This document shows positions 31,686 to 35,384 of a stretch of 64,000 nt of DNA, piece after piece. A program made the translations under genes and the position numbers. This stretch comes from Planctomycetota bacterium (GTDB lineage: Bacteria > Planctomycetota > Planctomycetia > Pirellulales > Pirellulaceae): positions 1 to 64,000 of the forward strand of contig CAUJHS010000076.1 of the NCBI GenBank assembly GCA_963204915.1, given 5' to 3'. The notes below the pieces were generated by a model. That model was not told the origin of the DNA and made no database searches. It was given only the letters and a program-made list of their open reading frames with translations. Each line of letters opens with the position of its first letter. The stretch's first letter is position 1.

Positions 31686-32387
31686 ATGGCGGAAGTTCAG
31701 CTTCGCTCGCATCAGAGTAAGGTCTATCACCAGTTGGCGGGCTGTTATGAAATGCTGTTTGCGCGATTCTTTCAGAACCGAATCCTGCAAACGATCGATA
31801 CGTTGCGAATGCCTCCCGGAGCCAAGGTGCTCGAAGTCGGTGTCGGCACGGGGCTGTCGTTCGACGCGTATCCTGAACATGCCCACGTGACGGCAATTGA
31901 CCTGTCCAATGAAATGCTCGACCGCGCTCAAAAGAAGCTTGACGCGATGAATTCGAGTCATATCGAACTACGCCAGATGGACGCACTGAAACTCGAATTT
32001 CCTGACGAACATTTCGACTATGTAATGTCGTTCCATGTCATAAGTGTGGTTCCTGACCACCAACGGATGGTACAAGAGATGGTTCGCGTCGCCAAACCCA
32101 ATGCGACCATCGTGATTATCAATCATTTCCGTAGTCCCTCGCCGTGGGTAGCATCCGTGGTCGATCGGTTAGATCCGGTGACACGTCGTTTAGGTTGGCG
32201 CACCACGCTTCGCTTGGAAGACGTGGTTTCATCCGGCCCATTAAAAGTGGAGCGGGTTTACAAGACTTCACGCCGGTCGCTGTTCACCGTAGTCCACGCG
32301 AACAAAGGATGTGAACATAAGCAATTTCAGCGAGACGGAAAGATTGTCTCAACTCCCGCGCTTCACGGCGTGTGCCAAACAAATTAA
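31686..32387 (+). CDS. pmtA: SAM-dependent methyltransferase, probably phosphatidylethanolamine N-methyltransferase
   Basis: This 233-residue soluble class I methyltransferase has motif I VLEVGVGTGLSFDAYPEH near residues 47-64, an acidic motif II ending in TAIDLSNEMLDRAQKKL, and the later strand FDYVMSFHVISVVPDHQRMVQEM. The N terminus SKVYHQLAGCYEMLFARFF resembles the PmtA enzymes of alphaproteobacteria, which methylate phosphatidylethanolamine to phosphatidylcholine. It begins 36 bases after pssA and follows psd, which strongly supports a lipid substrate. A ubiquinone/menaquinone methyltransferase is the main alternative. Confidence 0.78.
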   Translation: MAEVQLRSHQSKVYHQLAGCYEMLFARFFQNRILQTIDTLRMPPGAKVLEVGVGTGLSFDAYPEHAHVTAIDLSNEMLDRAQKKLDAMNSSHIELRQMDALKLEFPDEHFDYVMSFHVISVVPDHQRMVQEMVRVAKPNATIVIINHFRSPSPWVASVVDRLDPVTRRLGWRTTLRLEDVVSSGPLKVERVYKTSRRSLFTVVHANKGCEHKQFQRDGKIVSTPALHGVCQTN

Positions 32388-32431
32388 GCACTCGCGTCTT
32401 GGGGGCTCTCTTTCACGTTTGCCGATTCAAC

Positions 32432-32447
32432 AGGGTCACTTGACCCT
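32432..32447. repeat. Perfect inverted repeat AGGGTCA-CT-TGACCCT
   Basis: A 7-bp perfect palindromic arm pair with a 2-base centre lies 45 bases after the pmtA stop. It is too tight for a usual hairpin loop and looks more like a protein operator, or part of a larger structure with the next repeat. Confidence 0.5.
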
Positions 32448-32451
32448 TAAC

Positions 32452-32476
32452 CTCTTATCAGGTAATACGATAAGAG
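32452..32476 (+). terminator. Hairpin CTCTTATC / GATAAGAG, possible terminator or operator
   Basis: An 8-bp perfect stem with a 9-base loop, directly after the previous inverted repeat. There is no clear U-tract after it (TATTCGTT), so intrinsic termination is uncertain. It separates pmtA from the lysine-rich small gene. Confidence 0.35.
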
Positions 32477-32561
32477 TATTCGTTGTGTGTGGGAGTGGCC
32501 CATCGCGACATCACGCGTCTGTTGTTTATTTGGACTTTAGAAAGTCAAGGAATCTTTTATC

Positions 32562-32735
32562 GTGACCATCGTACGAGTCGGATCGAACGATCAATACGCA
32601 TCGAACTGGGACAGCATTTTTGGCGGAAAGAAGTCGAAAACCGCAGGGGCGTCCGCTTCGAAGAAGACATCGAAAAAGGCGGTCAAAAAGGCGCCCGTCT
32701 CAACGAAGAAGAAGACCGCCAAGAAAAAGAAATAG
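32562..32735 (+). CDS. Small lysine-rich protein, 57 residues
   Basis: GTG start with AAGGA about 10 bases upstream, and TAG stop at 32733-32735. The N terminus MTIVRVGSNDQYASNWDSIF is neutral and protein-like. The rest is Lys/Ala/Ser/Thr-rich (GGKKSKTAG, then KKAVKK and a final KKKTAKKKK), resembling histone H1-like tails. I recall similar short proteins with an N-terminal VRVG...W...FGG segment in planctomycetes, but that is from memory. The tail suggests nucleic-acid binding. The UGA-containing Rdx gene begins 6 bases after its stop, so the two are probably co-transcribed. Confidence 0.7.
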   Translation: MTIVRVGSNDQYASNWDSIFGGKKSKTAGASASKKTSKKAVKKAPVSTKKKTAKKKK

Positions 32736-32741
32736 CATTCA

Positions 32742-32978
32742 ATGAAAATCTGCGTGGAATATTGTTCGCTTTGAAACTACGAACCGCAGGCCGTCAGTCT
32801 GGCGGCCAAATTACTTGCAGAATACAAGCAGAAGATTTCTGGGCTTGAACTTATGCCTTCTTCCGGCGGGTGTTTCGAAGTGACCGTCGGTAATGAACTG
32901 CTCTACTCGAAGCTACTGACGGGCGAATTCCCCGATGAGGATGCCGTTTGCCGTCTTGTCGCCCAGAAGCTGAAGTGA
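32742..32978 (+). CDS. Rdx/SelW-like selenoprotein with in-frame UGA (Sec11)
   Basis: The reading is ATG at 32742, a UGA at 32772-32774, then 67 further codons to TGA 32976-32978. With selenocysteine at UGA the product is 78 residues. It opens MKICVEYCSLUNYEPQAVSL, with a CxxU redox motif at residues 8-11 just after the first beta strand, as in SelW/SelT/SelH (Rdx) proteins. The later segment has SSGGCFEVTV, ELLYSKLLTGEFP and a C-terminal helix, all typical of this thioredoxin-like family of about 70-100 residues. A SECIS-like hairpin lies just after the UGA. Reading UGA as stop gives a useless 10-residue peptide. Probable role: thiol/selenol redox; substrate unknown. Confidence 0.85.
32784..32805 (+). 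promoter_or_regulatory. Candidate bacterial SECIS hairpin
   Basis: Bases 32784-32786 (CCG) pair with 32803-32805 (CGG). G32802 is bulged. 32787-32791 (CAGGC) pairs with 32797-32801 (GTCTG, including one G-U). The apical loop CGTCA (32792-32796) has G as its second base. There are 17 nt between the UGA and the loop. These values fit the published bacterial SECIS model as I remember it: loop about 16-37 nt after UGA and a G among the first two loop bases. SelB would bind here. Confidence 0.75.
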
Positions 32979-33065
32979 CTCGACGTCGCGCAAATGTTTT
33001 GCGAAGTTTTCACTTACGCCTGTTCAAACGAACGGGCGTCATTGGGTCCGATCTTCTTACCGTCG

Positions 33066-35384
33066 TCACCTGGCCGTCTGATTGCTCGGCACATCCGCTA
33101 GAATCGCGGCAACATCGGCGAGGACTTTAACTGCTTCCTCGGGAAATGCATCTCTTTCTGTACTCCAGAAATTGAGTGTCGCCGGTGAAACGTGCGATTT
33201 GAAGGGAATGTGTAAACTTGCGGAAAATGCGGTCCGCATAAAACGCATATCAGGATTCGAAACTTTCGATAAGTCCTGAACGACGACGGGCCTGTCGTGG
33301 TCCACGTAGCTTGCGAGCGCCAACCCTTGCGCGGGAATCTCAGCACCCGCGCCGCCGACCAATCGACGAAATTGTTTCTCCTGCGCAGCGCGTTCGACCT
33401 TGAGCTTCTCGTCACGCACCACAGTCAAGCAGACACGGTCCAATTGAGGGAGAATCTCTCGCAACTTGACAGCGAATCTCTGGAAGTTTTCATCGGACTG
33501 AAACGCCGTTTTCGCCTCCTGTCGGACGTCTTCGTTCAAAAGCTCCTTCGATTGCCTTACGGACTTTAGAAACGTGTCGGTACGCCTTACAGCCGAGGTG
33601 CTTTCGGGAACAATTTCTTCGACGGTCGTCAGGTCGAAATAACCAATCATCATTTCTTCCCAGGTTTGGTCGCCCCAGGTGACATCCTTGGTAGGATCAG
33701 GATTCGCAAGATTTTCCTCCGAGTTATCAAAGTGGGCTACACAGTGAATCTCTGTTCCCTTGGGCAATCGCTTGGGTTCCGGAAATACGTACGAGTTCTG
33801 CCAATTAAAGTCGTATCTGGGAATATCTAGCAACACTTCGCTCTGCCCGTCAGGATACTGGGCCGTGTAGCGAAACGCCTTCCCACGTAAATGCATATGA
33901 GGGAACATCGCCAACATGAGCGAATCCTTCGTGATCGTATACTTCGAATCAACACGATGGTTGTTTGCTCCGGCCGGAATGCGAAACCGACTATTGGCCG
34001 CACTTTGCGTAATAACTTCGCGTTTCACGGTCTTCGGATCGGCAAAGACAAGGCCGACACTGCTCAGGTCGTCTTGGGCGACGCCGTTCGGCGTGTAATG
34101 CATCTGAAACACCAATCGTGAGCCAGCGGGCACCCGCTTCGCAAATCCATCGGGCAAGATTAACGGCATCGCTCCTGGGGCTGTTGCGGTCAACCACGCT
34201 GATTCAAGGTTGTCATGAGAGCGATCTCCACGACCGCCCGGGGGAATTGCCGCGACAATGATATGGTGCACGACAGCTCGATTCCCGGGCCTGCACTCAG
34301 CGGCGCGAATCCACTTATCCTCGGTGAATCCTGGGTCAACGACAAAATACTGATACTTAACTTCACCTTCGGCGGGTACGTGAAACGGTTTGTCAGCCAT
34401 CTGGATCACTTGGTCTGGCTTCCCGATTCGCCACCCTTGAACAAATTGACGCGGTGGCGGCAAATCGGCCGGATCACCTTCCGGCGCCCCAGAATTCACC
34501 CATTGACGAAGCATTTCCTTTTCTTCGTTGGACAACCGCGCATCATTGGAAAACTGACCATGCTCAGGATTGGCATGCCAGGGCGGCATTCGACCGTCTT
34601 GGACGACTTCGAGGATCATTTCAGCCCAGCCGACAACCTCTTCATAATCCGTGAGCGAGAAAGGCGCAATCTCTCCTTCGCGATGGCATTCGATGCAATG
34701 CGCCTGCAGCAAACGGCTGATCTGCTTCGAGTACGTTACGTCAGAATCGCGTTGTTCCTTGAATACGCGGCCAATAAGGCAACCGACGGCCTCGGCGTGC
34801 GATGTGACAACTTCTCGATGCTCGAGCAAGGAGTCGACGGCCTCTGTCAGGTATTCGTGTTTTACTTTAGGGCGCTGCACGCCATAGGTGTATTGATCGT
34901 CAATGCGTCCTTGGTAACGTACGCGGCGTTCGCGATCGAGCACAAACACTTCCGGCGTACGAGCGGCCTCAAAAGAATCAGCCACGGTATTGCCGGGATC
35001 CTTTAGCAAGGGGAATTCGATTTGATTAACTCGTGCAAAGTGCGAAATCTCGGCCAGCGAATCTTGCTGGTTCGAATAAACGCCCACGAATTGCAGCCCA
35101 CGGTCGTTGTATTTCGACTGGATTTCTTTCAATCGGGGGGCATAAAGCCGAACAATTGGACATTCCGTTCCCAGAAAAAGAACAACTACAATCTGACGGT
35201 CACCAAAGTCAGAAAGCCGCCACAGCTTACCGCGATAGTCCTGCAGAGAAAACTCTTGGACCTGCTTTCCAACGGCGTTTTTTCCCTCAAGCGGACCCTC
35301 AGCGCCTTCAGCACCGGGAGCAAATGCCCCCCCAAACAGAGCGCAAATCAAGCCGGCGATAAGTCCAAACCGCACGCACTTCAT
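33066..35384 (-). CDS. Redoxin - CxxCH - copper monooxygenase-like fusion with GAF-like tail
   Basis: This 772-residue secreted protein has a signal peptide at about 1-27. A redoxin domain covers about 35-190 (FSLQDYRGKLWRLSDFGDR, FLGTECPIVRLYAPRL; only one Cys of the usual pair). A heme-type site CIECH is near 231, with DGRMPPWHA after it. A region about 310-600 resembles copper type II ascorbate-dependent monooxygenases: candidate copper ligands are HH (AVVHHIIV), His in FQMHYTPNG, and HMH in FPHMHLRGKAF. The C terminus (about 640-765) reads like a GAF domain (RPVVVQDLS, ASLHIPFKSH, WSTERDAFPEEAVKVLADVA). The first three modules recur in planctomycetes; the tail is less usual. It is convergent with the selenoprotein gene. 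Confidence 0.8.
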   Translation of the reverse strand: MKCVRFGLIAGLICALFGGAFAPGAEGAEGPLEGKNAVGKQVQEFSLQDYRGKLWRLSDFGDRQIVVVLFLGTECPIVRLYAPRLKEIQSKYNDRGLQFVGVYSNQQDSLAEISHFARVNQIEFPLLKDPGNTVADSFEAARTPEVFVLDRERRVRYQGRIDDQYTYGVQRPKVKHEYLTEAVDSLLEHREVVTSHAEAVGCLIGRVFKEQRDSDVTYSKQISRLLQAHCIECHREGEIAPFSLTDYEEVVGWAEMILEVVQDGRMPPWHANPEHGQFSNDARLSNEEKEMLRQWVNSGAPEGDPADLPPPRQFVQGWRIGKPDQVIQMADKPFHVPAEGEVKYQYFVVDPGFTEDKWIRAAECRPGNRAVVHHIIVAAIPPGGRGDRSHDNLESAWLTATAPGAMPLILPDGFAKRVPAGSRLVFQMHYTPNGVAQDDLSSVGLVFADPKTVKREVITQSAANSRFRIPAGANNHRVDSKYTITKDSLMLAMFPHMHLRGKAFRYTAQYPDGQSEVLLDIPRYDFNWQNSYVFPEPKRLPKGTEIHCVAHFDNSEENLANPDPTKDVTWGDQTWEEMMIGYFDLTTVEEIVPESTSAVRRTDTFLKSVRQSKELLNEDVRQEAKTAFQSDENFQRFAVKLREILPQLDRVCLTVVRDEKLKVERAAQEKQFRRLVGGAGAEIPAQGLALASYVDHDRPVVVQDLSKVSNPDMRFMRTAFSASLHIPFKSHVSPATLNFWSTERDAFPEEAVKVLADVAAILADVPSNQTAR

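Follow-up and report, generated by a model that had tools for sequence, protein, structure and literature searches.

The gene at 32742-32978 of the window, a 64,000-nucleotide stretch of genomic DNA from a planctomycete bacterium, almost certainly encodes a SelW-like (Rdx) selenoprotein, a CxxU redox protein in which an in-frame UGA would be decoded as selenocysteine (Sec) by way of a hairpin at 32789-32807 (Table 1). From the conservation of both the codon and the hairpin, we infer that Sec is actually inserted at residue 11. In the proposed mechanism, a ribosome arriving at the UGA of codon 11 would find SelB and Sec-tRNA(Sec) bound to the hairpin located just 3' of this codon, and Sec would be inserted there, so that synthesis continues to a thioredoxin-like protein of 78 residues carrying a CxxU redox site. 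Where selenium is absent, translation would instead end after 10 residues.

Table 1. Positions in the window of the predicted selenoprotein gene, its decoding signals and the neighbouring upstream gene.
Feature	Position	Strand	Details
Lys-rich small protein, 57 aa	32562-32735	+	GTG start; begins VTIVRVGSNDQYASNWDSIFGGKK, ends KKKK; separated by 6 nt from the Sec-Rdx gene downstream
Rdx/SelW-like selenoprotein gene (predicted)	32742-32978	+	ATG start; 78 residues; true stop TGA 32976-32978
Sec-encoding UGA (predicted)	32772-32774	+	codon 11; encodes the U of the CxxU motif (C8-S-L-U11)
Bacterial SECIS hairpin (predicted)	32789-32807	+	8-bp stem 32789-32796/32800-32807; apical loop GUC 32797-32799

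Reading frame and family identity

With the internal TGA read as a residue, the product of the gene is MKICVEYCSLUNYEPQAVSLAAKLLAEYKQKISGLELMPSSGGCFEVTVGNELLYSKLLTGEFPDEDAVCRLVAQKLK, and the sole in-frame stops across the gene are this codon and the terminal TGA. An ordinary listing of open reading frames misses the gene and returns only short overlapping chance frames, just as a first-pass annotation of the window, made from the sequence alone, had said of conventional ORF calling at this locus. The same annotation had assigned the gene to the Rdx/SelW family, an assignment borne out by the scores of the read-through product against Pfam Rdx (PF10262; 69.8 bits, cut-off 22.6) and NCBIfam TIGR02174 CXXU_selWTH (63.3 bits, cut-off 34.2), and by its predicted fold. 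An AlphaFold2 model built with the family alignment as input has a pLDDT of 95.3, and its top Foldseek matches are the SelW-related crystal structures 2obk, 2fa8, 3dex and 2p0g, each at a TM of approximately 0.9; a sequence-profile search leads to these same four structures, while mouse SelW is matched by Foldseek at a TM of 0.68. The modelled protein is thus predicted to adopt the thioredoxin-like fold of the solved SelW-related proteins. Near the N-terminus, both columns of the CxxC/CxxU motif are invariant among 33 aligned relatives, the first being Cys and the second Sec or Cys, and family membership makes thiol/selenol oxidoreductase activity at the CxxU site the likely role of the protein. 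Scans for promoters and terminators around the gene gave no signal above chance.

Conservation of the UGA codon

A lone in-frame stop in an otherwise intact frame can arise by mutation or by error, and the locus could accordingly be read as a pseudogene, in which a nonsense mutation or a sequencing mistake has interrupted a gene of the Cys or Trp type. The relatives of the gene make this exceedingly improbable. When 241 genomes of the same bacterial family, whose nearest named kin are the Pirellulaceae/Pirellulales, were searched at the protein level, 92 of them proved to have the gene with a single in-frame TGA. Seventy family loci, counting that of the window, were read as DNA, and at the codon aligned to residue 11, 69 of them have TGA and the remaining one TGC. 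A second set of 58 loci from named genomes of Planctomycetota, Verrucomicrobiota, Acidobacteriota and Clostridia, which partly repeats genomes of the first, has TGA at 56 and TGC at two, so that the same stop codon recurs in several phyla and in independent assemblies. Downstream of the UGA, pN/pS is 0.21-0.25 between the window gene and five relatives, with a median of 0.29 over 1128 pairs, and by this measure the frame 3' of the codon is under purifying selection. Since the TGA is conserved across loci and the sequence beyond it is selected, a sequencing error or pseudogene was excluded.

The first-pass annotation had placed the UGA at the position of the second redox residue of the CxxC/CxxU motif and described the frame beyond it as open and family-like. 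Both statements agree with the alignment of the product to its Rdx/SelW homologues, where the site holds Sec or Cys alone and no unrelated residue, the downstream sequence is conserved with selection at the protein level, and no stop precedes the terminal one. The TGC locus of the family, L029 (G230:C76:24970-25200; identical to L098), represents the family's own natural Cys version. At another locus, L075 (G176:C389), the frame diverges after approximately residue 56 (...ELKVLETCHG...), which suggests a frameshift or an assembly error.

A frame that runs on through UGA would also be seen if this codon were reassigned or suppressed throughout the genome, for example to Trp, Gly or Cys, but there is next to no likelihood of this, given that TGA is the real stop of 26 of the 69 genes with a known end, the window gene among them, that the genome possesses a tRNA-Sec with a UCA anticodon along with selA, selB and selD, and that Cys is the sole alternative residue seen at the site. 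Reassignment was therefore rejected together with the pseudogene, on the combined strength of the conserved TGA, the downstream selection and the use of TGA as a terminator.

The SECIS hairpin

Decoding of UGA as Sec in bacteria calls on a SECIS element, for which a published model specifies an apical loop of 3-9 nt on an upper stem of 4-16 bp, a G within the first two nucleotides of the loop that is usually followed by G or U, a distance of 16-37 nt from the UGA to the apical loop, and a minimum free energy of at most -7.5 kcal/mol (PMC13188914). The hairpin at 32789-32807 agrees with all four constraints, having a 3-nt loop on an 8-bp stem, a loop that begins with G and then U, 22 nt between the UGA (end 32774) and the start of the loop at 32797, and a folding energy of -14.1 kcal/mol; this fold is also preferred in each longer stretch tried. 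The loop G (G32797) is invariant (70/70) and the base that follows it is T in 67 of the 70 loci.

This structure is supported by covariation, analysed over 68 distinct sequences and 500 shuffles. Of all cells, 82.5% are paired and 23 are changed on both sides, compared to 7.1 in shuffles, and the covariation score is 0.220 compared to 0.119; not one of the 500 shuffles matches the hairpin on pairing, two-sided changes or score, and sliding the stem partners abolishes the signal. The clearest covarying pair lies at columns 21/33, the third bases of codons +6 and +10, and is C-G in 45 sequences, U-A in 14 and G-C in three. Codon choice within the element is strongly constrained. AGT encodes the loop serine in 66 of 68 sequences, compared to 9.7% of the other serines in these genes, and the leucine after it is TTG or CTG in 70 of 70 (51% background). 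A 5-bp apical hairpin with a G in the loop occurs in 54 of 70, where 2.5 would be expected under synonymous recoding. All of these synonymous-codon figures ignore the relatedness of the sequences. The core GTC AGT YTG is found in Verrucomicrobiota and Clostridia as well.

Conservation is not uniform along the stem. In 16 of the 70 loci at least one of the five apical pairs is broken, mostly owing to an internal mismatch at columns 22/32, and the outermost pair is found in less than half of the sequences. Folding energy over the region is barely better than that of synonymous shuffles (mean z -0.57), and the support for a SECIS thus lies in the specific apical hairpin. Rfam SECIS families gave no match at E <= 1 within 32000-34000. 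Taken from the sequence evidence, the assignment of the SECIS to 32789-32807 is supported.

The first-pass annotation had called for a bacterial-type SECIS directly after the UGA, and this much holds for the covarying hairpin, but the structure that it drew at 32784-32805, with a 5-nt loop (CGUCA) and one bulged G, does not covary. Folded by itself, this alternative reaches -8.8 kcal/mol, and both the G of its loop and its 17-nt spacing agree with the published general model (PMC13188914), yet its covariation score of 0.099 equals the shuffled mean of 0.099 (258/500) and it is less stable than 32789-32807 by 5.3 kcal/mol. The position of its loop G, 32793, is variable, being G in 57, A in eight and T in five of the 70 loci. 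With covariation at the shuffled level it was rejected as the main SECIS, a role for which it is very improbable, and it could represent a minor alternative conformer.

The two Cys versions of the gene, which are the two TGC loci among the 58 from named genomes, differ in what they retain of this core. At L149, a TGC locus of the Verrucomicrobiales, the AGT-YTG motif is lost (GTC ATG GAG CTG), while the Cys version at L029 still has most of it, a probable relic. This is as expected if the exchange between Sec and Cys were old in the former and recent in the latter.

Selenocysteine machinery of the host genome

The host genome (9.24 Mb in 118 contigs) carries SelA, SelB, tRNA-Sec and SelD. The tRNA-Sec (selC) scores 66.7 bits with Rfam (gathering score 47) and is called by ARAGORN as tRNA-SeC with anticodon TCA, and selA (552 bits) and selB (370 bits) are neighbours on contig C16. 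SelD makes up the C-terminal portion of a fusion protein of 757 residues on contig C57 of this genome, G000 (L021:1120-3393), which has no in-frame UGA and whose N-terminus, a pyridine-nucleotide oxidoreductase domain, matches TIGR03169 'Nterm_to_SelD'. The best whole-length model of this protein is TIGR04369 'fusion_not_SelD', at 453 compared to a cut-off of 700, and the SelD model reaches 252.7 bits compared to a cut-off of 125; because the SelD model is over its cut-off and TIGR04369 far under, the protein was read as a SelD fusion, resembling the Ndh-SelD fusions of ocean metagenomes (PMC2398784). The Sec-competent organism anticipated by the first-pass annotation is thereby confirmed at the level of gene content.

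Across the 241 family genomes, selA accompanies the UGA gene in 83 of 92 cases, whereas of the 149 genomes that lack this gene 42 have selA, a strong co-occurrence (Fisher p ~2e-22, not corrected for relatedness). The remaining nine genomes have the UGA gene without a selA match at the threshold used; most are incomplete assemblies, and four of the nine have selB over its cut-off. Another of the nine, G227, is 99% complete and has a UGA Rdx with a recognisable SECIS core, but neither selA nor selB over the cut-off, possibly as a result of an assembly gap.

A whole-genome search of the host for Rdx recovered the window locus, with one TGA inside, and a single ordinary Cys paralogue (G000 C103:1313-1534; 113.5 bits). 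This second member of the family is approximately 30% identical to the window protein and presents its CTGC motif by Cys codons, with no UGA. In a search for Sec in other known families, in-frame stops were absent from the 31 AhpC/TSA matches of the host genome and from its strongest formate-dehydrogenase-like matches. A weak formate-dehydrogenase-like match (33 bits) on the minus strand at G000 C94:40502-40891 has one in-frame TGA, and could be a pseudogene, a chance match or another selenoprotein.

The upstream gene

The gene directly preceding the Rdx gene encodes an undescribed small protein with an N-terminal motif, M[ST]IxRVGxxxxYxxxWxxxF, followed by a Lys/Ala/Ser-rich tail, and no match to it was found in Pfam or NCBIfam. 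The motif is widespread, occurring in 208 of the 241 family genomes (150 of the 159 of good quality), mostly once in each and in many that lack the Sec-Rdx gene. The two genes are directly adjacent in this order at 39 of the 70 loci, the Cys version included, at intergenic distances from -4 to 157 nt, and they are probably co-transcribed. Most simply, the small basic protein would be a conserved one whose operon also contains Rdx. That the Lys-rich protein is a functional partner of the selenoprotein, the pair constituting a two-gene redox module of Pirellulaceae-like planctomycetes, is doubtful when set against an Rdx gene that merely lies behind a conserved housekeeping gene.

Relation to known selenoproteins

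The 2005 Sargasso Sea survey (48 sequences; PMC1088965) and the 2008 GOS survey (427 sequences; PMC2398784) both had the SelW-like CxxU proteins as their largest selenoprotein family. A 2006 genome survey noted that Cys homologues of this family are very scarce among organisms that use Sec (PMC1794560), in agreement with the relatives of the window gene. The bacterial SelW-like selenoproteins of these three reports share with the window gene their family, the CxxU site, and a Sec-UGA followed directly by a bacterial SECIS. That Sec occupies the SelW-like CxxU site in bacteria has been established since 2005-2008, and the window gene adds a well-supported planctomycete case to a selenoprotein type known to be common in bacteria.

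The 2006 tables place the SelW-like family in deltaproteobacteria, Clostridia and Symbiobacterium, and the passages of that survey consulted here name no members from Planctomycetes (PMC1794560), the phylum to which the window gene belongs. The SelT/SelW/SelH family includes solved Cys proteins of bacteria (2fa8, 2obk, 3dex, 2p0g, 2oka and 2ojl), on which the predicted fold superposes at a TM of approximately 0.9, along with mouse SelW (2npb). The window protein would use Sec instead, and its score against the Campylobacter-type equivalog NF041051 is below the cut-off (76.2 bits, cut-off 88). Among planctomycetes, P1 and P2 from Porphyra were reported in 2016 to have full Sec machinery and several selenoproteins, of which the main text treats FdhA and FmdB, with the terms 'SelW' and 'Rdx' absent there, the supplementary table aside (PMC4807772). 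In the literature searched, supplementary tables aside, no description of a planctomycete SelW-like selenoprotein was found.

The gene and its relatives thus reveal, within the SelW-like selenoproteins, a widespread branch in planctomycetes that goes unnoticed in ordinary gene calling. The core of its SECIS (GCC GTC AGT YTG GC) is almost unchanged in DNA from planctomycetes to Verrucomicrobiota and Clostridia, which makes it useful as a natural data set on how bacterial SECIS elements are recognised.
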